A stretch of 64,000 nucleotides of DNA from positions 1 through 64,000 of the forward strand of contig JAJSLI010000076.1 of the NCBI GenBank assembly GCA_021272315.1, read 5' to 3'. Shown here piece by piece: positions 15,640 through 63,629 of this stretch; the first letter of the stretch is position 1; each line of letters starts with the position of its first letter. The translations under genes were made by a program, and so were the position numbers. The notes beneath the pieces were generated by a model. It saw only the letters and a program-made list of their open reading frames with translations, had not been told where the DNA came from and made no database searches. Source of the DNA: Methylacidiphilales bacterium (lineage in GTDB: Bacteria; Verrucomicrobiota; Verrucomicrobiia; Methylacidiphilales; UBA1321).

Positions 15640-16135
15640 GCGCTCTTCAAGAGAAGTCCCGTAGGGACAATGCGAAAGTAGCCCGGCGCTTTAGCGCTGG
15701 GAAACAAGGCCCCCTTATCGAGGAGTCCCGGAGGGACGATAGAAACGCATCCCTCCCTCTGCGGCAACCGAATGGGGGCGGATGTTCCATCGGCTATCCC
15801 TGTCGGGTAGCCCGGCAACGCCACGCGTGCGTGTGTTGTCCGGGTGACCTCGCGTTGCGAGGTCACAAGAAGCGATCCCCATCGGCTATCCCGAAGGGAT
15901 CGCAGCAAAGCCGGTGGTAAGACCGACCCGTCCCGCTACGGCGGGAGCGGGCGTCGCCACCACCGGAAGGCATCCCCCAAAAACCGACCCCGGCAGGGGT
16001 CGCAGAGTTCGGCTACCCCTGCCGAGAAAACGGTGCCCGTCCCCGTTTATGCACCGCCTTGGCCACCCTGTAGGGGTGGCAATCCTATAGCCCAGGGTAG
16101 GCGCGCGGACACGTCCCACGCGCCTACCCTGGGAA
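15640..16135. repeat. tract of GC-rich palindromic (REP-like) repeats, copy 1
   Basis: This half-kilobase is almost entirely hairpins. GTCCC/GGGAC tri-loops recur near 15657 and 15727. GTGACCTCGC-GTT-GCGAGGTCAC lies at 15844-15866. A nested element has outer arms CCGGTGGT (15911-15918) and ACCACCGG (15959-15966). CGACCCC/GGGGTCG follows near 15985, and a 15-base stem pairs 16091-16105 with 16119-16133. The block 15911-16003 recurs in inverted orientation at 62370-62448, with stems kept and loops changed. ORFs predicted across it are artefacts. Confidence 0.8.
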
Positions 16136-19702: not shown

Positions 19703-20154
19703 ACTCAGCCTGAGCCGACTAGTATAAAGGGGTCAGACCGCACTATTGACACCAAGTTGCCGAGTGGTAAAGCCAGGTCACGCCTCGGGAATGGCGCACT
19801 TCAGCCCTTTGCAGTCCTCCGTGCGAAAATGTTGGCTCTCTGCCGCAAGCTCGGGAAATGGGCGCCTAACAGCACAGCCGCGCAGGACGCCAAGACAGCG
19901 CCTGCGGCCTGGGGCATGATCGCCATTCGTGAAACCAGCTCAATTCCTAAACGCGGTTCCCTCCCGCTTACTCCCGCCCTTCGGGCTCCGGCCCGCCATC
20001 GCGACCCAACAACGACTCCTAAAGTACCCACAGGGACCAGCTAAGGACCCACAAGGGGCAGCCAGGGGCCACAAGGCGCAGCAAAACGCGCTTACAAAAT
20101 TTTATTTTCTCTCCGGAGAAAATCCATGCGTTGATTTTCAACGACTTGCGTCGA
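19703..20154. other. intergenic region with degenerate repeats, no supported gene
   Basis: Between the autotransporter and the end of aroC. AAAGGGGTCAGACC (19727-19740) looks like a repeat-type motif; I cannot prove this inside the window. Around 20026-20090 three imperfect units of about 21 bases begin with CCCACAGGGACC, CCCACAAGGGGC and GCCACAAGGCGC. Two short open frames (19757-20044 and its opposite strand) resemble no family and lack ribosome-binding sites. Confidence 0.45.
20105..20122 (-). terminator. hairpin downstream of aroC
   Basis: TTTTCTC and GAGAAAA pair around the loop TCCG, 33 to 50 bases beyond the aroC stop, with an AT-rich stretch next to it in the direction of aroC transcription. 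The stem has few GC pairs, so terminator function is tentative. Confidence 0.3.
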
Positions 20155-21240
20155 TTACTCCCCAGCCACCGCCCGCTGGCGCAGGAAATGATCGGCAAGC
20201 ACGAGGCGCGTCATCGCCTCGACCATCGGCACAGCGCGAGGCAGCACACACGGGTCGTGACGCCCGCGCGCCTTCAGTTCCGCCGCTTCCCCGGTTACGG
20301 AGACGGTCTGCTGCGCCTGGGCAATGGTCGCCGTCGGCTTGAACGCGATGCGAAAAACAATGTCCTCGCCGTTGGAAATCCCCCCCTGCACGCCGCCGCT
20401 CCGGTTCGTCACCGTGCGAACACGCCCGCCTTCGTTCACGAAAGCGTCGTTGTGTTCGGAGCCTTTGAGAAGCGTCCCGGCAAAACCGGAGCCGATTTCA
20501 AACCCCTTGCTGGCGGGCAGGCTGAGCATCGCCTTGGCCAGGTCGGCCTCAAGCTTGTCGAAGACCGGTTCGCCCAGCCCCACCGGCGCGTTGCGGACGA
20601 GACACGTCACCACCCCGCCCAGCGAGTCGCCCGCCGCGCGGGTCTTTTCGATGAGCGCAATGACCCGTTCCGCGTCGGCGCTGTCGGGCCAGCGGACGAT
20701 GTTGCTTTCCACTTCGGCGTACGAAATTTTCTCCAGCGGCACGTTCGCCGTCAGGTCGTGCACCCGCGAAACGAACGCGACGATCTCCAGTTTCGGCGTG
20801 ACCTTTTTGAAAATCTGCCGGGCCACCGCGCCGCCGGCAACGCGCCCGATGGTTTCGCGGGCGGAAGCGCGGCCGCCGCCCTGCCAGTTGCGGATGCCGT
20901 ACTTGGCCTGGTAGGTGTAATCGGCGTGGGAGGGGCGGTAAAGCGTCTCCATCTCCTTGTAGGCCTCGGGCCGCTGGTCCTCGTTGCGCACCAGGATCGC
21001 GATGGGCGTACCCAGCGTTTGGCCCTCGAACGTGCCCGAAAGAATCTCGCACACGTCGGCCTCCTTGCGCGGCGTGACGATCTTGCTCTGGCCGGGCCGC
21101 CGCCGGTCGAGGTCGGCCTGCACGTCCGCGGCGGTGAGGGGAATGCGCGGCGGGCAGCCATCCACGACCACACCAATCCCGCCGTCGTGGGACTCGCCCC
21201 ACGTCGTGATCCGGAAAAGATGGCCAAAGGTGTTCGGCAT
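20155..21240 (-). CDS. aroC: chorismate synthase
   Basis: AroC converts 5-enolpyruvylshikimate-3-phosphate to chorismate using reduced FMN, the last step of the shikimate pathway. The 361-residue product starts at ATG 21240 with [17 protein letters not shown], the family N-terminus. It also has [29 protein letters not shown] and, near the C-terminus, [18 protein letters not shown]. An upstream start at 21270 adds ten non-conserved residues. One oddity is GESHD where most members have GESHG; the active-site histidine is kept. It is divergent from aroK, an earlier step of the same pathway, across 108 bases that should hold both promoters. Confidence 0.96.
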
Positions 21241-21348
21241 GAGAAAGGCCACTCTAACAGATTGACGCAATTACGGAATGACGGAATTGTGGCGGTAAAG
21301 GTTGTTCGAAAAGTTGTCAAAGACGCGCTCCCGGAGCATCTTAAGGGC

Positions 21349-21870
21349 ATGGCCAGACACGTTACTCTTATCGGCATGATGGGCGCCGGGAAAAGCAGCG
21401 TCGCTCCACGGCTTGCGGATAGGCTGGGCCGTCGCGCGATCGAGATCGACGAGTTGATCGAGAAAAAGGAGGGCATGACCATCGGCGAGATCTTCATTGC
21501 CAAGGGGGAGGCCTACTTCCGCCGCGTCGAGTGCGAACTCATTCGGGAAGTCATCAAGCAGCCTCCCGCCGTCCTTTCCCTCGGTGGCGGCGCGTTCCAA
21601 TGGGAGGCGACCCGCAAACTTCTCCTCGCTGAAACCGTTGTCATCTATCTCGCGGCCACGCTGGAAGTCCTCTGTTCCCGGCTCCAGGCCGGCATCAACG
21701 CGCGCCCGCTGCTCAACGCGCCCGGTATCGATTTCCGGCAGACGGTGCATGATCTCCTCGAACGCCGCGACGCCAACTACGGTCTGGCCCATTACCGCGT
21801 CGAGACCGATTCACACACGCCGGATGACGTGGCCAAAGCCATCATCACGCTGCGCGAGGCTTATGAATGA
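21349..21870 (+). CDS. aroK: shikimate kinase
   Basis: AroK phosphorylates shikimate at O3 with ATP. The frame is open from far upstream, antisense to aroC, but the protein begins at ATG 21349 (173 aa) with ARHVTLIGMMGAGKSSVAPR, which includes the Walker A motif. EIDELIEKKEGMTIGEIF holds the substrate-binding aspartate, EAYFRRVE the conserved arginine, LSLGGGAF the glycine-rich shikimate loop and ARPLL the lid arginine. Length is normal for the family. It overlaps queG by four bases (ATGA), so the two are cotranscribed. Confidence 0.94.
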   Translation: MARHVTLIGMMGAGKSSVAPRLADRLGRRAIEIDELIEKKEGMTIGEIFIAKGEAYFRRVECELIREVIKQPPAVLSLGGGAFQWEATRKLLLAETVVIYLAATLEVLCSRLQAGINARPLLNAPGIDFRQTVHDLLERRDANYGLAHYRVETDSHTPDDVAKAIITLREAYE

Positions 21871-37183: not shown

Positions 37184-39037
37184 CTAAGCGGGTGTGGAGA
37201 GATCGATCTGGTGGGGTTCAATTTTTTCGATGACAACGTGCCGGATGCCGCCCTCGTCGGTGGAGAGCTCGATGCGCTCACCGACCGTGTGATTGAGCAA
37301 CGCCCGTGCCACCGCGGTCTGGTAGGAAATAATTCCTTTGCTCAGATCGCTGTCCCAGGCGCCAAGGATGATGTAGACGATCTCTTCACCGCCGACCTCG
37401 TCTTTGAGCGCGACTTTGGTGCCGAGCGAAACCTTCGATGTGTCAGGGTTGGCGAAGTCGGTGCCTTGGGCGCGAACGAGCATCTGTTCCAGTTCGGCTT
37501 TGCGGCGCGCGAGGATCGTTTGCATTTCCTTGGCCGACTTGAACTCATGGTTCTCGCGCAGATCGCCGTAGCCGCGCGCAATGCCGATATCCTTGCTGTT
37601 CTGTGGAATCTGGCGCAAGACCAAATCTTCCAGTTCCGTCTTGCGACGCTGGAGGCTGGGCCACGAAACGATAAGGCCCGCTTCGGGGGCGGCAGCGGTC
37701 TTGTTGTCGCCTACGACCATGGCCTGAACTTCGGGATAGAGTTTGATGATCGAGGCGAGGAGCGACCTTTTGTCGAGTTCCTCGAAGACCGGGCTGAGCA
37801 GGATCGCGCGGGTGATGTCGCGCACATCGCCCACCGGTGAGTCCTTGAGGATGGCCGCAACGAGCGCCTTGTCCGACAGGACGAGTTCGTAAAGCTTGGT
37901 CCCTTTCTTGATCTCGGAAAATTGGTCTCTCTCGAGAACGGAAAGAATGGCCATGAAAAGCTGCGGTTCGATTAGCGGGCCGTAGACGGCGGGCCGGTTC
38001 TTGCAGAGCCAAAAGAGAAAGTCGCAGGTAATGTTCCGTTCGCGGATGTAGCGATTGACCGCTGCGTGGACCTCGGCTTCGCGCCCGGTGGCTTGGAAGG
38101 ATTCCGTGATGACCTCAGCAACGCGCCCATTGGCTCGGGGTAGCAGACCGAGGAAAAGAGCAGGCCAGGCGTCGGGCAGGCCGATACGCAACGAATCGAG
38201 CAACTTGGGCTGGCGCGAACCCGGCAGCGCATCAAGCAGGGCGCTGAGCGCCGGGGCGTTTTGCGGGGCGAGCATGGTTACAGCCCACGGCCCGGTTTCG
38301 GGCGGTCGACCGGCTTGGGCGAAAAATTCATCGCGGGCGAGGGAGAGTTCAACCTGGACCGCCAACTGCGACTTGGGAACCTTGGCCAGCGTGCCGTGGA
38401 GGATTTCAGCCACTTCATTCAGTGCGGTGTCACTCTTGATTTCGGACCAGTACTTGCCAAGGCCGGTCAGGGCGGTGACAACCGCCTTGGGACCGTTGGC
38501 CAGCCGCAAATGTTCAAGTGCGGAGTCGCCCAGCGCGGTCGGCGCATCGAGCTTGCGCAGTGCCTCGGTCTTCTTGCCGGGCACGTAGTAATGGCCATTC
38601 TTTTTGAGGGCGCGCTTGGCGCTGTCCCACCACTTCTTGTATTCGGGGGTGGGGATGACGTCGGGGCTGAGCAGAGCATGGATACCGTCGGCGGTCGCTT
38701 GCGGGCCAAGACTGCGGATGCAATCGTCAACCACGGCGGCCGGGTTGTCCTTTGCCTTCTGGCGCAACGCATCGAGAGAGGCTGCTTTTTGGACCATGAT
38801 GTGGTCGGCAGCGAGCGGTGTGAGCGACTCCGCCGCATAGGCAAATTGCATCACGTGGCCGCGCTTGGATTTAAAGTCGATATGGACGCTGTCGCTGGCG
38901 CTGTTCCATTCCTTGATCTGGCCAAAGCCCCAACTGCGGTGGAGACAATAGATTCCGGGGACGAGAGCCTTGAGTTTTTCCGTCAAAGCGGGAGAGAGAT
39001 TTTCAGGCAGTGTCGCGGTCAATAACTCCAAATCCAT
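37184..39037 (-). CDS. greA: long GreA-type transcription elongation factor with N-terminal extension
   Basis: GreA/GreB factors insert a coiled coil into RNA polymerase and stimulate cleavage of backtracked RNA. The last 160 residues of this 617-residue protein form a full GreA: coiled coil with GYGDLRENHEFKSAKEMQ (acidic tip D492 and E495) and a C-terminal FKBP-like domain (LGTKVALKDEVGGEEIVYII and GISYQTAVARALLNHTVGER). The first 450 residues are helical with an N-terminal segment CLHRSWGFGQIKEWNSASDS that resembles a small beta domain. Standard GreA has about 160 residues. Chlamydiae have a long GreA of around 700 residues, so this extension may be a shared PVC trait. It is six bases upstream of eno. 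Confidence 0.85.
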   Translation of the reverse strand: MDLELLTATLPENLSPALTEKLKALVPGIYCLHRSWGFGQIKEWNSASDSVHIDFKSKRGHVMQFAYAAESLTPLAADHIMVQKAASLDALRQKAKDNPAAVVDDCIRSLGPQATADGIHALLSPDVIPTPEYKKWWDSAKRALKKNGHYYVPGKKTEALRKLDAPTALGDSALEHLRLANGPKAVVTALTGLGKYWSEIKSDTALNEVAEILHGTLAKVPKSQLAVQVELSLARDEFFAQAGRPPETGPWAVTMLAPQNAPALSALLDALPGSRQPKLLDSLRIGLPDAWPALFLGLLPRANGRVAEVITESFQATGREAEVHAAVNRYIRERNITCDFLFWLCKNRPAVYGPLIEPQLFMAILSVLERDQFSEIKKGTKLYELVLSDKALVAAILKDSPVGDVRDITRAILLSPVFEELDKRSLLASIIKLYPEVQAMVVGDNKTAAAPEAGLIVSWPSLQRRKTELEDLVLRQIPQNSKDIGIARGYGDLRENHEFKSAKEMQTILARRKAELEQMLVRAQGTDFANPDTSKVSLGTKVALKDEVGGEEIVYIILGAWDSDLSKGIISYQTAVARALLNHTVGERIELSTDEGGIRHVVIEKIEPHQIDLSTPA

Positions 39038-46040: not shown

Positions 46041-47834
46041 TTACAACAACGGTTCCGGAGCCGCCGTCTTCCGTCTTTCCTGGCCAGCCGCATTCCAAAG
46101 CCGGGCGTAAACGCCGGCGCGAGCCAGCAGTTCCGGACCGGTGCCCGATTCAACGACCGAACCATTATCAAGGACGTGAATGCAGTCAACGTGGTGAATC
46201 GTGCTCAGCCGGTGAGTGACAATCAAAGTGGTAAAACGCCGCATCAGCGCCTGAAGCGTTTCCATGATTTCGGCCTCGGTTTCGAGATCGAGCGCGCTGG
46301 TTGGTTCGTCGAGGAGCAGGATCGGCGCGTTTTTCAGGAAGGCGCGGGCGAGGCCGATCCGCTGCTTCTGGCCACCGCTAAGCCGTACGCCCCGCTCGCC
46401 GACTTCCGTGTCGTAGCCGCGCGGTAGTTTCTGGATGAAGGCGTCGGCCTGCGCCGCTTCGGCCGCGGCACGAATCTCGGGGCGGCTCGCCTCGGGGCGG
46501 CCATAGGCGATGTTTTCCAACACCGTGCCGGAGAGCAAAAGTGTGTCTTGCAGCACGACGGAAATATTGGCGCGGAGCGATTTTTTTGTGGCGTCGCGTA
46601 CGTCGAAGCCGTCGACCCGTACACGGCCCGAGCCGGGATCGTAAAAGCGAGGCACGAGGGAAAGCAGCGTCGTCTTGCCCGCGCCGGTTCCGCCCACCAA
46701 GGCGACCGTCTGTCCCGGCTTTATTTCAAGGCTGATGCCGCGCAGGATCGGATGATCCGGCTCATAGGCAAAACCGACGTTTTCGAACGCGATCTCGCCG
46801 CGGGCGCGTGGCATCGGCTTCGCGCCGGGCATTTCCGGCACCGAGTCCTCCGCGTCCAGGATTTCAAAGACGCGCTGCATGCCCGCCACCGCGCCTTCCA
46901 TGGCCCAGGCGGTGTAACTGAGCCGTTCCAGCGGCTGGTAGAGTAGGCCGACATAGGCGAGGAAAAGGGTGAGTTGCCCGATTGAAAGCCGGTGATCGAG
47001 GATGTGGAGCGTCGCCACGTAGAGGACCAGCGACAGGCCGAGCGCCATCACCACCGATACCGCCAGCGATGAAATTGCACTGGTGATGGTGAGGTTGAGA
47101 TTGGCGGTGTAACTCTGCCGGGCTTCGCGCTCGAACTCGCGCACCTCGTATTCCTCCTGACCGAAGGCGTGGACAATGCGGATGCTGGTCAGGCCTTCGC
47201 TGGCGCGGGCCAGCACGTCGCTTTCCTCCTGTTGCAGGGTCGTCGTCTGCCGCCGTACGCGCGCGGAAAAGAAATAAATGGTCAGCCAGAGCGGTGGCAG
47301 GATCAACAGCGAGATGAAGGCCAGTTCCGGGTCCATTTTCAGCATGTAAACAAAGGTGATCAGCAAGGCGATGGAGGAGCCGACGATGGTATCGAAGCCG
47401 CGGTTAAAAAATGTCTGGATCGCCTGCGAATCGTAAGCGACCCGGAAGGTCGAGTCGCCGCTGCGCCGCCGGTCGTGAAAATGGAGCGGGAGGTATTGCA
47501 GGTAGGAGTAGAGCTGGGTGCGGACCTGCAGCAACGCCTTCAAGCCGACTTCAATCGAGACGTAATTGCTCCAAAACCCGGTCAGTCCGGCCAGAAGGTA
47601 GAGTGCGACCATGGCCAGCGCGGCGTAGAGCGCCGCTGCGCCTGGTGAAAACGTGAACGATTGCCATTGGACCGGTTCCCCGGCCTGCCGCGTTAGTACG
47701 TGATCGATGATCCACTGGATCGGCATGAACTTGAGCAAATTGAGGTTCGAACCGATCACCTGGAGGATCAGGCTGAAGCAGATCGTGCCAAGGTAGGGGC
47801 GGTAATAACCGATGACGCGGCGGTAAAGGTTCAC
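46041..47834 (-). CDS. MsbA-like ABC exporter (fused membrane and ATPase domains)
   Basis: From GTG 47834 the product has 597 residues, the usual size; the frame is open to 47972 but no ATG is available, and the N-terminus overlaps the end of the preceding gene. Six transmembrane helices occupy residues about 10-310. The ATPase domain has Walker A LVGGTGAGKTTLLSLV, the signature RLSGGQKQRIGLARAF, and Walker B ILLLDEPTSALD. Half-transporters of this type export lipid A, lipid-linked sugars, lipids or peptides as homodimers. The overlap with the glycosidase-glycosyltransferase gene upstream suggests it exports the glycan or glycolipid made by that enzyme. Confidence 0.9.
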   Translation of the reverse strand: MNLYRRVIGYYRPYLGTICFSLILQVIGSNLNLLKFMPIQWIIDHVLTRQAGEPVQWQSFTFSPGAAALYAALAMVALYLLAGLTGFWSNYVSIEVGLKALLQVRTQLYSYLQYLPLHFHDRRRSGDSTFRVAYDSQAIQTFFNRGFDTIVGSSIALLITFVYMLKMDPELAFISLLILPPLWLTIYFFSARVRRQTTTLQQEESDVLARASEGLTSIRIVHAFGQEEYEVREFEREARQSYTANLNLTITSAISSLAVSVVMALGLSLVLYVATLHILDHRLSIGQLTLFLAYVGLLYQPLERLSYTAWAMEGAVAGMQRVFEILDAEDSVPEMPGAKPMPRARGEIAFENVGFAYEPDHPILRGISLEIKPGQTVALVGGTGAGKTTLLSLVPRFYDPGSGRVRVDGFDVRDATKKSLRANISVVLQDTLLLSGTVLENIAYGRPEASRPEIRAAAEAAQADAFIQKLPRGYDTEVGERGVRLSGGQKQRIGLARAFLKNAPILLLDEPTSALDLETEAEIMETLQALMRRFTTLIVTHRLSTIHHVDCIHVLDNGSVVESGTGPELLARAGVYARLWNAAGQERRKTAAPEPLL

Positions 47835-47868
47835 GGTGAATGGTCCCGTTGGGTCGGGATAAAATCGA

Positions 47869-50493
47869 TCATCCTTTCGCGCCGGGTTTACGTTTCCCCA
47901 GCGGCTGGAGGCCGGCGCGGATCGCGGCGACCTCGACCAGTTCCGCCAGCCGGTGCCGCAGGCGCAGTCCATGGATCAGCCAGAGCAACGCAAAAAAAGA
48001 TACCACCGTGAGGACGTAGAGCGAACTGAGTGGGCGCCAGAGCATGATTACCAGCGAAAAGGTGAGGAGGAATCCTCCGACCAGCGATGAAAAGGTGCTG
48101 ACATTGAGAAAATTCCCCACGCGTGTCAGCCGCCGTCCGCGCGGATAAATTTCTGTCATCGAGAGCAGGCGCAGGTTCCACCAGCGGCTGGCAAAAATAT
48201 GCAGGTCCCAATTGGTCCAGCCGGTATCGAGCGAAAATTTCCAGCCTTCCTCATCGAGCAACTGCTCTGTTTTCACAAGCAAATGGGAGCGTTCCAGGCC
48301 CGTTTCGCTCCAAAAGGCGAGCTGCCCGGAAGCGCTCCACCTCACCGCGAGGTGCGGCGCGTCTTCCTTGGTATCGATGACCGCGGGTGGTGTCCGCTTG
48401 CCGCGCAACCAGGTGAAGTAGCGCGCCCAAGCCCGGCGCCAAGGCTGCATGATCGCCAGATAAAGCAACAGCAGCCGCGCGGGAATGCTGTCGAACTTCG
48501 CCTCGATGCGCGCCTGCGCCATGTAGACCAGCCCCACGATCAGCGTCATGCCGAACATGATCAGTGGAATCAGCCGCAGCCAGGAAAGGGGGGGCGGGAT
48601 CGACAGAAAAAAGATGAAGAGTGTCACCGCCAGCCATTCGAGGCTCCCGAGCAATGCGGCAAAAGGCGAATAGCGCTTTGGGTAAATGCATTGGAACAGG
48701 CCGGTGCCGAACACCCCGTGATAGATGATCGGGCGCGTAAAAAACGAATCCATCCGCACCTGGGAATAGACGTTGCCGTGCCAGATCGCTGAACCGGTCG
48801 GCCCGAAATACTGCAGGTGCTTGTAGCGCAGCATCGCTTCGGCCTCTCCGTAGCCGAGCTGCTGGCTAAAGTATGTCCGCACCTCGAAGCGGCGGTAATG
48901 CCAAACCACTGCGGCCGGGCTGAACACGATTTGATAACCATGCTGCATCAGCCGCCAGCAGACGTCTACGTCGTCACCAGCCTTGCGGTACTCGGGATCG
49001 AAGCCTCCGATCTCCTCAAGAGCCCATTTGTGATAGGCCATGTTGCAGCCGGGCACGTGTTCCGCAATGGTGTCGGTTATCAGCACGTGGCTGGGTGAGC
49101 CGGGAGCGGCTCCGACCGTGGCCTGGATCCAGTCGGTTGCGGGTGGCGAAATATTCGGTCCGCCGACCGCGGCAAAGTTGCCGGATAACAACGCGTGGAC
49201 GAGGAAGTAGAGCCAGTCGCGGTCGGCCATGCAGTCGGAGTCGGTGAAGGCGATCACGTCGCCCAGGGCCGCGGCGATGCCTACGTTGCGCGCAACGCTC
49301 AGTCCTTTGTTTACCTGGACAATGTTCCGCACCTGCGGGAAATCCTTCATGATTTCCTGCGTATTGTCTTTGGAGCCGTCGTCGACAAAGACCACCTCAT
49401 AGTTCGGGTAATGGAGATCCCGAAGCGAATTAAGACAGTCGCGCAGGGTACGCGCACCATTGTAGGAACAGACGATGACCGTGACCATCGGTAGCTCGGA
49501 CTCCGGTTTGAAACGCTGGTAGAGCGGACGTTCCGGTTTCTTCAGAAGGGGTTGCAGTGCCTGGTAGCTCAGCTTGGGACGGCGTTCGCGGGTCACGATA
49601 CCGAAGGCCCAATCGGTCACATCAATGCCGTCGGTGAACCACTCATCGGTCCAGGAAAAAATGAATGTTCCGGCCAGCCCACTTTCGAAAACGGTCGTCA
49701 CGTGCTCTGCCAACAGCCGCGCCTGCTCATCCTCAGAGTGTCGGATCGTGTCCATGCCAAATTCGCTCAGGAGGAGCGGTTTGTCTCCGGCCAGGTTTTG
49801 CAGGCGGCCGAGATAATTCACCAAGTCCTTCTTGCGGTGGAGATAGATGTTGTAGCTGTAGAAATCGACCTCGTTTGGCAGCAGGTATTCGGTGGGCGGA
49901 AAATTTGCATAGGCGGCCAGAGCGCCCGGATCGTGCTTTTTCACGATCCGCACGAGGGAATTCAGGAACTCCTCCATCCGCCGCGGGCCGTACCAGCGCA
50001 CCAGATCGGCGGGGATTTCGTTGTCGATGAAAAAGCCAAGCAAGGAAGGATGCCCGGAGTTCGCTTGCGCCGCTTCGGCGATGTTTTGCCGGATTGTTTC
50101 CAGTGTTTCGTGATCATCAAGGAAAAGTACCCGCTTGTGCCACGGAATCGTCACCATGACACGCAGGCGTTGCCCAAGTGCCAGATCGAGAAACCACCGC
50201 GGCGGTGTGTGGTAGACCCGCACAACGTTGATTCCGAGTTCCCGCATCAACCCGAAATCCACAGCCACTTTTTCCGGTTGAGGCAGGTTTGGGCCGTCAT
50301 CGGTCGCGGGCCGGAACGGGCCGTAAGTTACACCCTGCAAATAAAACTTTCGGTCACCCTCAAAAAAGAACTTGGACCGTACCTGCAGACGGGGAAGGTC
50401 GGTCGCGGAGATCGGCGCCGCGTTAACTACATCATGCACGCCCGGCAGTTTCTCCGAGCCCGATGCGCCCGGCAAGTCAGGACTTGGCCCCAT
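47869..50493 (-). CDS. glycosidase-glycosyltransferase fusion protein (GH clan A + GT2)
   Basis: An 874-residue two-enzyme protein. Residues 35-315 resemble a clan GH-A TIM-barrel glycosidase (GH2 or GH5 type): likely acid/base E159 in FFIDNEIP and nucleophile E244 in LLSEFGMD, followed by FSWTDEWFTDG. Residues 335-560 form a GT2 transferase with VTVIVCSYNG, VFVDDGSKDN (D371), TDSDC (DxD at 418-420) and GGFDPEYRKAGDDVDVCWRL (acceptor region). Membrane helices occur only after the GT2 domain (about 605-665 and 800-845). The polypeptide therefore seems to keep both catalytic domains on the cytoplasmic side. It overlaps the RND gene by 17 bases and the ABC exporter gene by about 35. Confidence 0.85.
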   Translation of the reverse strand: MGPSPDLPGASGSEKLPGVHDVVNAAPISATDLPRLQVRSKFFFEGDRKFYLQGVTYGPFRPATDDGPNLPQPEKVAVDFGLMRELGINVVRVYHTPPRWFLDLALGQRLRVMVTIPWHKRVLFLDDHETLETIRQNIAEAAQANSGHPSLLGFFIDNEIPADLVRWYGPRRMEEFLNSLVRIVKKHDPGALAAYANFPPTEYLLPNEVDFYSYNIYLHRKKDLVNYLGRLQNLAGDKPLLLSEFGMDTIRHSEDEQARLLAEHVTTVFESGLAGTFIFSWTDEWFTDGIDVTDWAFGIVTRERRPKLSYQALQPLLKKPERPLYQRFKPESELPMVTVIVCSYNGARTLRDCLNSLRDLHYPNYEVVFVDDGSKDNTQEIMKDFPQVRNIVQVNKGLSVARNVGIAAALGDVIAFTDSDCMADRDWLYFLVHALLSGNFAAVGGPNISPPATDWIQATVGAAPGSPSHVLITDTIAEHVPGCNMAYHKWALEEIGGFDPEYRKAGDDVDVCWRLMQHGYQIVFSPAAVVWHYRRFEVRTYFSQQLGYGEAEAMLRYKHLQYFGPTGSAIWHGNVYSQVRMDSFFTRPIIYHGVFGTGLFQCIYPKRYSPFAALLGSLEWLAVTLFIFFLSIPPPLSWLRLIPLIMFGMTLIVGLVYMAQARIEAKFDSIPARLLLLYLAIMQPWRRAWARYFTWLRGKRTPPAVIDTKEDAPHLAVRWSASGQLAFWSETGLERSHLLVKTEQLLDEEGWKFSLDTGWTNWDLHIFASRWWNLRLLSMTEIYPRGRRLTRVGNFLNVSTFSSLVGGFLLTFSLVIMLWRPLSSLYVLTVVSFFALLWLIHGLRLRHRLAELVEVAAIRAGLQPLGKRKPGAKG

Positions 50494-53356
50494 TGTTCAC
50501 CCGCGGTTTGAGCAGCGCGAGGATTTGGGGCAGGATGAAAATCGCGGTGACCAGGCCGATGGCAATGCCGAGTGACATCAACTGGCCAATGTCGAACATG
50601 CCCCGGAAGGTCGAGACGAGCAGGGAACTGAACCCGAAAAGAGAGGTCAATGACGACATGATGATCGCCTTGCCCGTGCTGCCCGAAAAGATGCTGAGTT
50701 TTCCGTCCTCTCGGTAGCGGTCGATGATGTAAACCCCAAACGCGACGTCGATGCCGATAATTAGCGGCAGGGTCACAATGTTGGCCGGGTTGAACTGGAT
50801 ATTCAGCCAGACCATCGCGCCGGTGCGCCAGAGCACCGCCAAGACCAGCGGCGTGAGGGTCAGTAGCAGGTATTTTAGGCTCTGAAAATGGAGGAGAATC
50901 AGCACCACGATGGTGGCAAAGGCCCATACGGCCGCCCAGAGGTAACTGACGCGCAATAATTCCGTGGCGTAATAATTGAGCACGGGCGTGCCTGTTGCCT
51001 TGGGCGCGACGGCCAGCACTTGATTGACGAATTCTTCGTCGGGTGCGCGTTCCCAGAGGTCCTTCTTGCCGTAGATCTGGAGCAGAACCTTACCGTTAGG
51101 CGCGAGGAAGAGCTTTTGCAGTTGCGGCGGGACGTCGGCCAGCGTCAGGCCCCGGTCAGCCTTTTGAATTCTAAGTAACTCCATGTTCTTTTGCATGGTG
51201 GTGAACGCGCCGCTCGAGGAGGCGCTGAACCGCTGCTGAATCGTCGCGACGGGCGCGGAGTTGAGCGCCTTGTCGGCCCGGTCCAGCGCGGGAACCATTT
51301 CGCTGAAGGCGGCCACGGCGTCCTTGGCGATCTTGGAAACGCCGACGAAGCCCTTGGCTTGTTTCAAGGCTTCCTTGGCTTGGCTGAGCAGGCTTTCGAT
51401 GTCCCGGCGTGCGCGGGGGATGTCGACATTGTTGTTTGTTGGCGGTTTGAGATTTAACGCGCTTGCAGTGGCCACGATCTGCTGGATGACCGGCATCTTG
51501 ACATCCTGATTCTCCGGAACAAGGTCGAGCAGCGAATCAACCTTTCCTACGACCGGCAGCGCCGCGAGTTTTTTGGCGAGGTCGCGCGCCTGGTCGAGGT
51601 TGTCGGCGACGACGGAGGCGTAGATGGTCGATACCTCCGCCCCCTGGTCGTTGCGGGAGGCGTTCATCACTTGGTAAAGCGTCTTCACCGATTCAGCGGA
51701 CGGGTTGTCGAGATGGAGCAGGTTGTAGTCGAATTTCAGGTAGGGCAGGCTTAGAATCGAAATCACCGAAATCACCGCTGAGAGCACAATCCAGAACCAA
51801 GGGTGGCGCACCATGTCGCGGTCCCAAGTATGGATGAAATGCCAGGCCGAATCGTTGGATTGGGTCTGCAACTGTTCGGGGGTCCGATTCCGGTCGCGAA
51901 GGATGAAGATTGCAGGCAGAACAACCAGGTTGGCTGTGATGCAAAGGACCATGCTTGCGCCGGCAATAATGCCCAACTCGGCCAATCCGACAAAATCGTT
52001 GAAACAAAGGCTGAAGAAAGCTGCCGCTGTCGTGCTGCCGCCGGTAATGATGGCCACGCCGGTGTGTTGCAGCGCGACGGTCACCGCCTCGCTGATCGTC
52101 CGGCCATGGCCGAGTTCCTCCTCGTAGCGACCGAGAATCTGGATGCCAAAATCGATGCCGATGCCGAGGACCATCGGAATCACCGCGATGGAAAGGATAT
52201 TGAAATGGCCCACGATGACGAGGGCAAACCCGAGTGACCAGAGCACGGCCATGATCAGGGTCAGGAAGGTAAACGCCGGGCGCAGGAACGTGCGGTAACT
52301 CAGGAAGAAGAGAGCGATGATCAGTGCCAAGGTAATGCAGCTCGCTTTGGTCGTGTCGATTTTTGTCATCAGCATCTCGTCGGTGTCCAGCGCCGGTTCG
52401 CCCGTAAGCTTGACCTGGACGCCGGGATGCTCCATTTCGATTTGCCGCAGTTTTTCGCGAATCCTCCCGGTCGTCTGGCTGAAAGGCGCATCCGAATCCT
52501 TTTCGTCCTCGCCCGTGTAGGCGAAGACCAGAACGGACTGCCCATCTTGCAGGCTGAAATACTCGTGTTCGGCGAGCATCTCCGTCGCGTCAAGGTCGCC
52601 GAACGCGGTGTCGTCGGAAGCCTTGTACTCCGCCTGCGGCAGCTTTTTTCCGCTGGCCTGCTCCGTCACCTTATTCAGGATCGAGACGAATTGCCTCACG
52701 AAGGGCTTGAACTCGGTCCAATTTTCTTTTTTGCGAAGATATTTTTCATCAAACTTCCTGTTCGCCTCGTCGAGAATCGAGTTGAGGTCCAGGGCCATCT
52801 GTTCTGATTGCGCCTGGCTTTTCTTTTGCAGATTCAGTTGCGATTTAAGTTGGTCGGCGATCTTCTGTAATTCGTCCAGGTTGCGCGTAAAGAGCAAACG
52901 CTGCTTCAACGCCGAAAAATCGATCTTGCAAAGGACTGCGCTGATCTGGGGCTTGAGCGTTAGCAGATACTGGCCTACTTCGTCCGCCACCTGTCGGTTT
53001 TGCGCAGGGTCGTTCGATTGGATCAGAACAATGAAGCGGTAATCACTGCCGAAGTCGTGGACCAGTTCCTTATAGTTTCGTTTCGGTTCGAACTTGTCGC
53101 TGAGCAGGTCGGTCGTGTTATTGATTACGTTGAAACGCTTCCAGACCACAAAAATGCTGCCCAAGGCAAACAAGATGCCGATGGCCAGGATCAGGGCCGG
53201 CCGGGCGCAAACCACCCGGGCGACTTGGCCCATGATCCATTGTAGGACTCGATGTATCAGCGACATGAAGAGTTGAAATTTGGGCGTCTCTTTAAAATAA
53301 GGCAAGGCCGTGTTGATCAGGCGCATCGAAAAGCCTTGAGTAACTGCCTCCACCAT
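50477..53356 (-). CDS. RND/MMPL-family exporter (HpnN-like)
   Basis: The 959-residue protein has the symmetric two-half plan of MMPL transporters. The first helix is PALILAIGILFALGSIFVVW and is followed by a large periplasmic domain with a coiled coil (LKSQLNLQKKSQAQSEQMAL). The first membrane block carries VLGIGIDFGIQILGRYEEE. A second periplasmic domain follows, then a second block with LIIGIDVAFGVYIIDRYRED. The GIDFG/GIDVAFG motifs are typical of MMPL and sterol-sensing-like helices. Family members export lipids, including hopanoids (HpnN). It is the first gene of the minus-strand export cluster, so a lipid or lipid-linked glycan substrate is plausible. Confidence 0.85.
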   Translation of the reverse strand: MVEAVTQGFSMRLINTALPYFKETPKFQLFMSLIHRVLQWIMGQVARVVCARPALILAIGILFALGSIFVVWKRFNVINNTTDLLSDKFEPKRNYKELVHDFGSDYRFIVLIQSNDPAQNRQVADEVGQYLLTLKPQISAVLCKIDFSALKQRLLFTRNLDELQKIADQLKSQLNLQKKSQAQSEQMALDLNSILDEANRKFDEKYLRKKENWTEFKPFVRQFVSILNKVTEQASGKKLPQAEYKASDDTAFGDLDATEMLAEHEYFSLQDGQSVLVFAYTGEDEKDSDAPFSQTTGRIREKLRQIEMEHPGVQVKLTGEPALDTDEMLMTKIDTTKASCITLALIIALFFLSYRTFLRPAFTFLTLIMAVLWSLGFALVIVGHFNILSIAVIPMVLGIGIDFGIQILGRYEEELGHGRTISEAVTVALQHTGVAIITGGSTTAAAFFSLCFNDFVGLAELGIIAGASMVLCITANLVVLPAIFILRDRNRTPEQLQTQSNDSAWHFIHTWDRDMVRHPWFWIVLSAVISVISILSLPYLKFDYNLLHLDNPSAESVKTLYQVMNASRNDQGAEVSTIYASVVADNLDQARDLAKKLAALPVVGKVDSLLDLVPENQDVKMPVIQQIVATASALNLKPPTNNNVDIPRARRDIESLLSQAKEALKQAKGFVGVSKIAKDAVAAFSEMVPALDRADKALNSAPVATIQQRFSASSSGAFTTMQKNMELLRIQKADRGLTLADVPPQLQKLFLAPNGKVLLQIYGKKDLWERAPDEEFVNQVLAVAPKATGTPVLNYYATELLRVSYLWAAVWAFATIVVLILLHFQSLKYLLLTLTPLVLAVLWRTGAMVWLNIQFNPANIVTLPLIIGIDVAFGVYIIDRYREDGKLSIFSGSTGKAIIMSSLTSLFGFSSLLVSTFRGMFDIGQLMSLGIAIGLVTAIFILPQILALLKPRVNNGAKS

Positions 53357-62495: not shown

Positions 62496-63629
62496 TTACT
62501 TGAACTCCTCGACATTCCGGACGAATTCCTCGACGCGGGCGCGCAGGGCCGCGTCGTCGCCGGCTTCGTAGAGGCCGCCGCCGATGAGGAGGACGACTTC
62601 CCGTCCGTAGAACGAAAGGACGTCGGCGACCTGGTGATATTTGATTCCGCCCGCCGGCATGGGCAGCGTGGGGGGCAAATTCGGAATTTCGGGCTGGGTC
62701 AGCGCCTTGGCCAGTTTGCCGCAGGTGGCGCGGCTGTAGGCGAAGCGTCCGCCGAAATTGGCGAAGATGGTGGCGTCGGCGCCGTAGAGGGGGAAGAGTT
62801 TCCCGTAGAGCAACTCGGGGGCGATGCGCGTCGCGCCGCCGAAGCTGGGGTGGCCGAGTACGGGCACCCGGGCATGGTGGGCGACGATTTCGGCGAGGAA
62901 GGGGAGGCCGAGGAGCATCGGGGCGACCATCACCGCGCCGACGCCTTCATCCTGCGCGAACTGGAGCTGTTTCAGGACGGTCGAGGGGGTGCCGATGAGG
63001 TTGGGCACGTAGATCGAGCAGCGGCCCGAGGCACTGTTCGCCTCGCGGACGGCCTTCTGGCAGGCGCGCACCCGTTCCCGGAAGGGATGAAAGGTGTGGT
63101 TGGCCAGCCCGTGATCGTCCTTGATGATGTCGATGCCCCCTTGCGCGAAAAGCGCGCAGAGTTGCGCGATCCGTTCCGTGCTGAGGCCGATCGGCTTGAG
63201 CGCGGTGCTGGTGATGGCCCGCTCCGGGACGTTGAGGATTTTGCGCAGGCCCGCTGTGCCGAATTTTGGGCCGGGCAGCGCTTTTTTGCGTCCCGGCCAG
63301 TCGGAGGGGAGGGCGAAGTCGGCCAGCAGGACGTGCTCCTGGATGGAGGAGTTGCCGAAGAGGACGTTGAGGAACTGCGCCGGGTCGTCCGCCGTGGCGA
63401 TGATGGGGAAGTCGATGACCGCCCGGTGGGTCTCGCCCTCAAGCGGATCGAGGGAGGCGAGCCGCCCCACGATGTTGTCCAGGACGAACTTGTCGCGCAG
63501 CGCCGCGCGGGGCAGTTCCACGGTTTGTTCCAGCAGGAGCGACTCGACCCGCGCATCGAGGTCGTAATTGGTGGAGGCGGTGACGTGATAGGTGGCCCGC
63601 AAGGCGGGCCAGGGGGCGGGGGAGGACAT
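62496..63629 (-). CDS. RuBisCO-like protein (form IV-type)
   Basis: The 377-residue protein has a RuBisCO large-subunit fold with STALKPIGLSTERIAQL (K145, the equivalent of the first active-site lysine) and GGIDIIKDDHGLANH (K170, D171, D172, H173). In carboxylating RuBisCO the last metal ligand here is glutamate; histidine replaces it, and the loop and C-terminal residues (HPSFGGATRI, ADATIFANFGGRF, GGGLYEAGDD) follow the RuBisCO-like pattern. So it should not fix CO2; known relatives act as enolases, isomerases or decarboxylases on sugar-phosphate-like substrates. No pathway neighbour is visible. The plus-strand frames over it are shadows. Confidence 0.85.
   Translation of the reverse strand: MSSPAPWPALRATYHVTASTNYDLDARVESLLLEQTVELPRAALRDKFVLDNIVGRLASLDPLEGETHRAVIDFPIIATADDPAQFLNVLFGNSSIQEHVLLADFALPSDWPGRKKALPGPKFGTAGLRKILNVPERAITSTALKPIGLSTERIAQLCALFAQGGIDIIKDDHGLANHTFHPFRERVRACQKAVREANSASGRCSIYVPNLIGTPSTVLKQLQFAQDEGVGAVMVAPMLLGLPFLAEIVAHHARVPVLGHPSFGGATRIAPELLYGKLFPLYGADATIFANFGGRFAYSRATCGKLAKALTQPEIPNLPPTLPMPAGGIKYHQVADVLSFYGREVVLLIGGGLYEAGDDAALRARVEEFVRNVEEFK

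Follow-up and report, generated by a model that had tools for sequence, protein, structure and literature searches.

A GH157-like barrel fused to a GT2 glycosyltransferase in Verrucomicrobiae: a candidate editor of a glycan inside the cell

Introduction

The window analysed here, a stretch of 64,000 nucleotides from a Methylacidiphilales bacterium, contains a minus-strand gene, starting with ATG, which encodes a glycoside hydrolase (GH) barrel and a family 2 glycosyltransferase (GT2) in a single polypeptide. What could a hydrolase do in the same chain as a synthase, and on which side of the membrane does it work? No paper on GH–GT2 fusions of this type was found in the open-licence PMC literature, which is weak evidence of absence.

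Domain architecture

Pfam recognizes two domains in the fusion protein, the GT2 domain and a barrel of clan GH-A (Table 1); neither a GH94 nor a GH144-like domain was found. The original prediction had placed the barrel glutamates E159 and E244 ahead of a GT2 domain with a DxD motif at 418–420, and every residue number proved correct: the motif FIDNEIP leads to E159, LLSEFG to E244, and DSD occupies 418–420. In the soluble module between the two membrane hairpins, R687, R691, R735 and D763 are invariant in the alignment A2.

Table 1. Position of the fusion gene, its parts and its neighbours in the window (residue numbers are those of the fusion protein).
Feature	Coordinates	Strand	Evidence
GH–GT2 fusion gene, 874 aa	47869..50493	-	ORF calling; fusion kept in relatives; no variation at either active site in 105/105 homologues
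Clan GH-A (β/α)8 barrel, residues 32–323, GH157/GH2/GH72-like	49525..50400	-	Pfam, profile against PDB, AlphaFold (pLDDT 92.4), Foldseek, VIA-align
E159, putative acid/base, in the NE motif ending strand β-4	50017..50019	-	N158 and E159 invariant in 105/105; aligns with the NE of LaGH157
E244, putative nucleophile	49762..49764	-	Invariant in 105/105; aligns with the Glu replaced by Ala in LaGH157 E224A (9g4n)
GT2 (GT-A fold) domain, residues 334–560	48814..49494	-	Pfam; nearest NCBIfam model MftF
DSD (DxD) metal/donor motif, residues 418–420	49234..49242	-	Residue numbering and homologue alignment
GDD, residues 506–508, candidate catalytic-base region of the GT2	48970..48978	-	D507 and D508 in 104/105, one gap
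QQxGYGxAE, residues 544–552, at the place of QxxRW in processive GT2s	48838..48864	-	Conserved; QxxRW in 0 homologues
First transmembrane hairpin, residues 614–659	48517..48654	-	Hydropathy; helices in the model; missing from the f5 homologues
Soluble inter-hairpin module, residues 660–799	48097..48516	-	Kept in helix-free homologues too; K+R 20 against D+E 14
Second transmembrane hairpin, residues 800–840	47974..48096	-	Hydropathy, model helices, charge count
MsbA-like ABC exporter, directly downstream of the fusion	46041..47972	-	Pfam/NCBIfam; adjacency in Methylacidiphilales/subdivision 6
HpnN/BstA-like MMPL (RND) transporter, overlaps the fusion start by 17 nt	50477..53356	-	Pfam/NCBIfam; neighbour in closest relatives only

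The glycosidase barrel

The features of clan GH-A are found in the barrel by model, fold search and alignment: a (β/α)8 fold, a glutamate after strands 4 and 7, and an NE motif. Glyco_hydro_72 (PF03198) matches residues 30–96 with an E-value of 5e-9, above the cut-off, yet over only 71 of the 314 profile positions, and Pfam does not detect a full GH72 catalytic domain. Glyco_hydro_2_C (PF02836) matches residues 38–251 (4e-7, 29.8 bits against a cut-off of 21). The barrel begins around residue 37, and Pfam finds no counterpart of the N-terminal sugar-binding and immunoglobulin-like domains of GH2.

In fold searches of the PDB (Foldseek, VIA-align) the best match is the GH157 enzyme of Labilibaculum (LaGH157; Z 31.3, 3.0 Å, 300 residues, 18% identity). 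The GH2 β-glucuronidases come next with a Z of about 30; the fold by itself is therefore undecided between the two families, and the hint of β-1,3-glucan that it gives is weak. The sequence profile separates GH157 from the other families more clearly than the fold does, with E-values of 1.6e-25 for GH157, 2.6e-11 for a GH2 β-galacturonidase, 9e-8 for GH158 and 1.4e-6 for the GH72 enzyme Gas2. By profile and fold, the barrel thus appears nearest to GH157, then to GH2 and GH72. The profile match to LaGH157 comes at 17–18% identity, and L056, a protein of the phylum without the fusion, is far closer to that enzyme (E 2.3e-65).

GH157, GH158 and GH72 enzymes are all active on β-1,3-glucan, and those of GH72 are transglycosylases. 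The LaGH157 structures contain laminari-oligosaccharides; the one in which the glutamate aligned with E244 is mutated (E224A, 9g4n) was solved with laminaritriose. A GH157 enzyme from Bacteroides cleaves linear β-1,3-glucan (PMC10229575). The kinship of the barrel is a lead which hints at β-glucan chemistry.

L056, L057 and L058 are non-fused GH157-like enzymes from other classes of the phylum, which could serve as an outgroup for the barrel. The N-termini of L056 and L057 are hydrophobic and, by eye, resemble secretion signals.

The glycosyltransferase domain

Pfam Glycos_transf_2 matches residues 338–495 with an E-value of 5.8e-31. The nearest NCBIfam model is MftF (TIGR03965), to which all 44 aligned members have a match, the best at an E-value of 6.9e-56. 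This likeness has limits: the GT2 of the window scores 153 bits against an equivalog cut-off of 280, the MftF model does not include a GH, and the 91%-complete genome from which the window comes has no mycofactocin radical-SAM gene (TIGR03962) over the cut-off. Assignment as the MftF of the mycofactocin pathway was therefore rejected. The hopanoid glycosyltransferases HpnI and HpnB were also rejected, with scores far below the cut-offs (30.3 of 310 and 28.7 of 379, respectively).

The QxxRW motif of processive GT2s of the BcsA, NodC and PgaC type occurs in none of the aligned homologues, which have QQxGYGxAE instead. Without a channel and without the processive motif, a short cytoplasmic chain would be the natural product of such an enzyme.

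Distribution and conservation

The same barrel–GT2 fusion is carried by more than 100 loci, so that a chance fusion or an assembly error can be rejected. Among the matches listed, the closest named loci belong to Candidatus Methylacidiphilales and to other Verrucomicrobia MAGs, and the fusion is present in 10 of the 12 genomes of the family. The genome searches covered the phylum of the window, one contig scan giving the best 80 loci. A strong barrel match occurs in 27 of 289 sampled genomes of the phylum, all in the same class, and the frames examined among these matches are the same fusion. Seven weak barrel matches in other classes of the phylum, L056–L058 among them, have no GT2 in the same frame. 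Plasmids gave GH2-type enzymes or weak partial matches only, and in the viral fold library the only matches were to a GT2 or to a GH separately, with low coverage. The homologues span 690–900 residues, with 0 to 4 helices. The homologue at L154:5418-9068 has a frame of about 1217 aa, with some 350 extra residues ahead of the barrel, which may be an extra domain or the result of a false start.

The catalytic residues were counted in 105 distinct aligned homologues. The barrel has the catalytic glutamates on which the original prediction relied: E159 and E244 never vary, nor do W118, N158, N215 and W285 of the clan GH-A active-site set, whereas R92 is missing from one gapped row only and position 217 is Tyr in 103 homologues and Phe in 2. 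Similarly, D371, D372, D418, D420 and H532 of the GT never vary, D507, D508 and D510 are absent in one gapped row only, and QQxGYGxAE is invariant except at its variable positions and for a single G549A substitution. Within the genus, dN is about 0.08–0.10 for the barrel and 0.04–0.07 for the GT; the corresponding dN/dS ratios, about 0.04–0.07 and 0.03–0.05, are only approximate, since dS is higher than 1. Selection on the barrel is strongly purifying, and the invariant active site of this domain together with the low dN/dS indicates that it is not a mere relic.

Topology of the fusion protein

The hydropathy profile shows helices at about 614–632, 641–659, 800–818 and 822–840, and none in residues 1–330 or between the GH and the GT, which bears out the earlier claim that transmembrane helices appear only after the GT2 domain. 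In the model, residues 1–30 are disordered (pLDDT about 32). Positive charges number 20 in the middle module and 8 in the tail, which are both on the GT side of the hairpins, compared to 1 in each hairpin loop. The charged module and tail and the tiny loops thus put the GT, the middle module and the tail on one side of the membrane.

A segment was flagged in only two of 118 homologous frames. On inspection, the segment of L036 precedes the probable start of the protein, and that of L131 is a mild hydrophobic peak within the barrel. Eight homologues of one family, f5 (L045, L048, L049 and L051–L055), have no helix at all. Their frames, of 688–734 residues, are devoid of both hairpins and retain the GH, the GT and the C-terminal module, and several of them begin with a Met a few residues ahead of the barrel, e.g., MEALCVDGKFFRAGG. 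A GT2 requires cytoplasmic nucleotide sugar. Therefore, the GH and the GT of the f5 proteins share one compartment, and the whole protein is cytoplasmic. The f5 homologues are also convenient soluble forms for structural work and assays.

For the membrane-bound form encoded in the window, this argues strongly that the glycosidase is cytoplasmic as well. The original prediction, which placed the glycosidase on the same side as the GT and named an exporting N-terminal signal as the observation that would speak against it, is thereby upheld: no signal peptide or other export signal is predicted in the fusion protein, no helix precedes the GT, and the helix-free homologues starting with Met are the strongest evidence. 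The GH and the GT are thus very probably both inside the cell; this location, like the conservation of the two active sites, is well supported.

Genomic neighbourhood

The open reading frame of the MsbA-like exporter overlaps the fusion gene by 104 nt. In relatives, the exporter starts within a few bases of the stop of the fusion, so that the true start is probably inside the called frame. Further downstream are an FKBP-like protein (recognized by eye) and a phosphohexomutase. A consensus scan for promoters and terminators gave nothing beyond chance for promoters in this operon.

An ABC exporter is encoded directly downstream of the fusion, on the same strand, in 22 of 68 scorable loci. In a tree of 76 sequences, which was quickly made, has long branches and was used for clustering alone, this pairing is clustered yet extends over deep branches (8 changes compared to 19.3 in shuffles). 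It occurs in all four Methylacidiphilaceae-like rows (L088, L089, L098 and L123) and in the three inspected genomes of the same order outside the family (G053, G089 and G277). Among Methylacidiphilales/subdivision 6 sequences, the ABC exporter is the clearest functional partner of the fusion. The genome encodes seven full-length MsbA-type exporters, of which the copy in the window is not the best match to MsbA. In Chthoniobacterales and other families, the fusion has no ABC gene beside it and adjoins housekeeping genes, e.g., hemL, purM and queA, which implies that export is not general, or that it is encoded elsewhere.

The MMPL/RND protein is similar to HpnN (504 of 752 bits) and to the sterol transporter BstA (259 of 1400), both scores being below the cut-off. 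The search for recurrent neighbours detected no uptake system or catabolic cluster beside the fusion.

In some Chthoniobacterales, a membrane protein of about 470 aa adjoins the fusion and looks, by eye, like a GT-C mannosyltransferase (L134:11632-13044). A similar protein occurs in L121, L126, L128, L133, L135, L136 and L138, with no Pfam match at E 1e-5.

Elsewhere in the window, the 579-aa product of 20131-21870 (+) has a shikimate kinase domain at its C-terminus only (417–572), its first 416 residues having no Pfam match at E 1e-6. The 617-aa product of 37184-39037 (-) has GreA/GreB domains only at 461–607, after a long N-terminal extension in which Pfam matches nothing at the same threshold. 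The 377-aa product of 62496-63629 (-) resembles the RuBisCO large chain, with a match only at 126–242, and is possibly a RuBisCO-like protein. An Acido-Lenti-1 RNA (Rfam RF01687) is found at 15655-15701 (-), with a score of 38.3 for a gathering score of 37.

Possible functions

We lean, with some reserve, towards a glycan synthase with two activities, both in the cytoplasm: the GH would trim or transglycosylate what its own GT makes, and the ABC protein would export the result at loci where the two genes adjoin. The GT2 would take its sugars from a nucleotide-sugar donor and, by non-processive elongation and without a membrane channel, build a short chain carried by a soluble or lipid acceptor. 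The tethered barrel, taken as a catalytically active, retaining relative of GH157, would reshape the same product inside the cell, either by cutting and re-joining the chain (transglycosylation, branching or cyclisation) or by trimming it to length. In Methylacidiphilales and their relatives, the adjacent MsbA-like exporter would then carry the finished product across the inner membrane. It would be futile to have a free hydrolase act on the same product, whereas a tethered retaining enzyme could serve as a transglycosylase, a cyclase or a length-setter; a hydrolase and a transglycosylase cannot be told apart by sequence. We infer the editing step, i.e., the action of the GH on the product of the GT, as well as its substrate, which may be of a β-glucan type, and export by the adjacent ABC protein.

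A more specific proposal is tentative. The fusions may form a class of synthases widespread in Verrucomicrobiae, in which the GH157-like barrel would be the transglycosylase (for cyclisation, branching or length setting) of its own GT2, and a cyclic or capped β-glucan would be finished before ABC export. We hold this to be conceivable rather than expected.

It is unlikely that the enzyme instead makes a glycolipid, the GT attaching a single sugar or a few of them to a hopanoid or another membrane lipid, the GH proofreading by taking off wrong or surplus sugars, and the ABC and RND proteins moving the lipid. The presence of HpnN/BstA-like and MsbA-like genes in the same apparent operon, the hairpins which hold the enzyme at the membrane and the weak HpnI and HpnB scores would all fit such a role, but these scores are a small fraction of the cut-offs, the RND gene is a neighbour in the closest relatives only, and the helix-free homologues have no membrane anchor.

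We give still less credence to salvage or remodelling, in which the barrel would hydrolyse a cytoplasmic oligosaccharide, either imported or stored, and the GT would re-use the freed end as an acceptor. Many homologues have no exporter nearby, and the closest relatives without a fusion within the phylum resemble GH157 and are presumably catabolic, L056 and L057 having apparent secretion signals. Against this, the sole functional neighbour that recurs is an exporter, not a gene cluster for uptake or catabolism.

Non-catalytic GH-like domains occur in other proteins, and the barrel might likewise have lost catalysis and hold the chain for the GT as a carbohydrate-binding or scaffolding module; the near-invariance of the whole active-site set in the 105 homologues makes this very improbable. 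Lastly, a periplasmic barrel, as in the Pseudomonas GH17–GT2 protein NdvB, was rejected as scarcely credible: the disordered N-terminus and the periplasmic GH17 of the Pseudomonas fusion (PMC10237404) would agree with it, but the lack of a signal or helix before the GT, the helix-free homologues and the charge distribution all oppose it, and with no helix between the two domains an exported barrel would put the GT outside too.

Comparison with known GH–GT synthases

Read as a bifunctional synthase, the fusion combines a pair of activities that is already known from other GT–GH synthases, and is not a new category. In the cyclic β-1,2-glucan synthase Cgs, the GT, the cyclase and the phosphorylase are all cytoplasmic (PMC10901819), and export of the product falls to the ABC protein Cgt (PMC11842490). 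The earlier statement that the purpose of GH–GT fusions is not established therefore needs correction, since same-side combinations with an assigned purpose exist. Like the fusion, Cgs has GT2-like (GT84) and GH-type domains in one chain, cytoplasmic soluble domains and ABC export (Cgt/ChvA); by prediction and comparison, the fusion follows this plan, with the exporter adjacent in a subset of loci. Cgs differs in its size (more than 2500 residues), its six helices, its GH144-like cyclase and its GH94 phosphorylase, whereas the only GH of the fusion is an unrelated one, a clan GH-A barrel ahead of the GT.

In the pseudomonad NdvB/"Orphan" GH17–GT2 proteins, the barrel is predicted to be periplasmic, with a signal sequence and three helices between the GH and the GT (PMC10237404). 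The same two activities are there divided between the two faces of the membrane. These proteins resemble the fusion in that a clan GH-A barrel precedes a GT2 within a single chain, and the isolated GH17 domain is a transglycosylase. The fusion differs in having no signal, no helix before residue 614 and a barrel that is GH157-like, not GH17. As for GH157 itself (LaGH157, BcellWH2_01931), it provides the nearest solved barrel by profile and fold, with its nucleophile at the position of E244, but the characterized enzyme is free, located at the cell surface, catabolic and devoid of a GT, and the identity with the barrel of the fusion is about 17–18%.

The fusion thus has the domain order of the NdvB GH17–GT2 proteins, the topology of Cgs and a third kind of GH. 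It looks like the built-in editor of a glycan, and suggests that Methylacidiphilum and its relatives have an envelope or periplasmic glycan that is yet to be described. It would represent a second solution, unrelated to Cgs and conserved across the class Verrucomicrobiae, whose small helix-free form would make the role of a hydrolase inside a synthase directly testable with a soluble protein.
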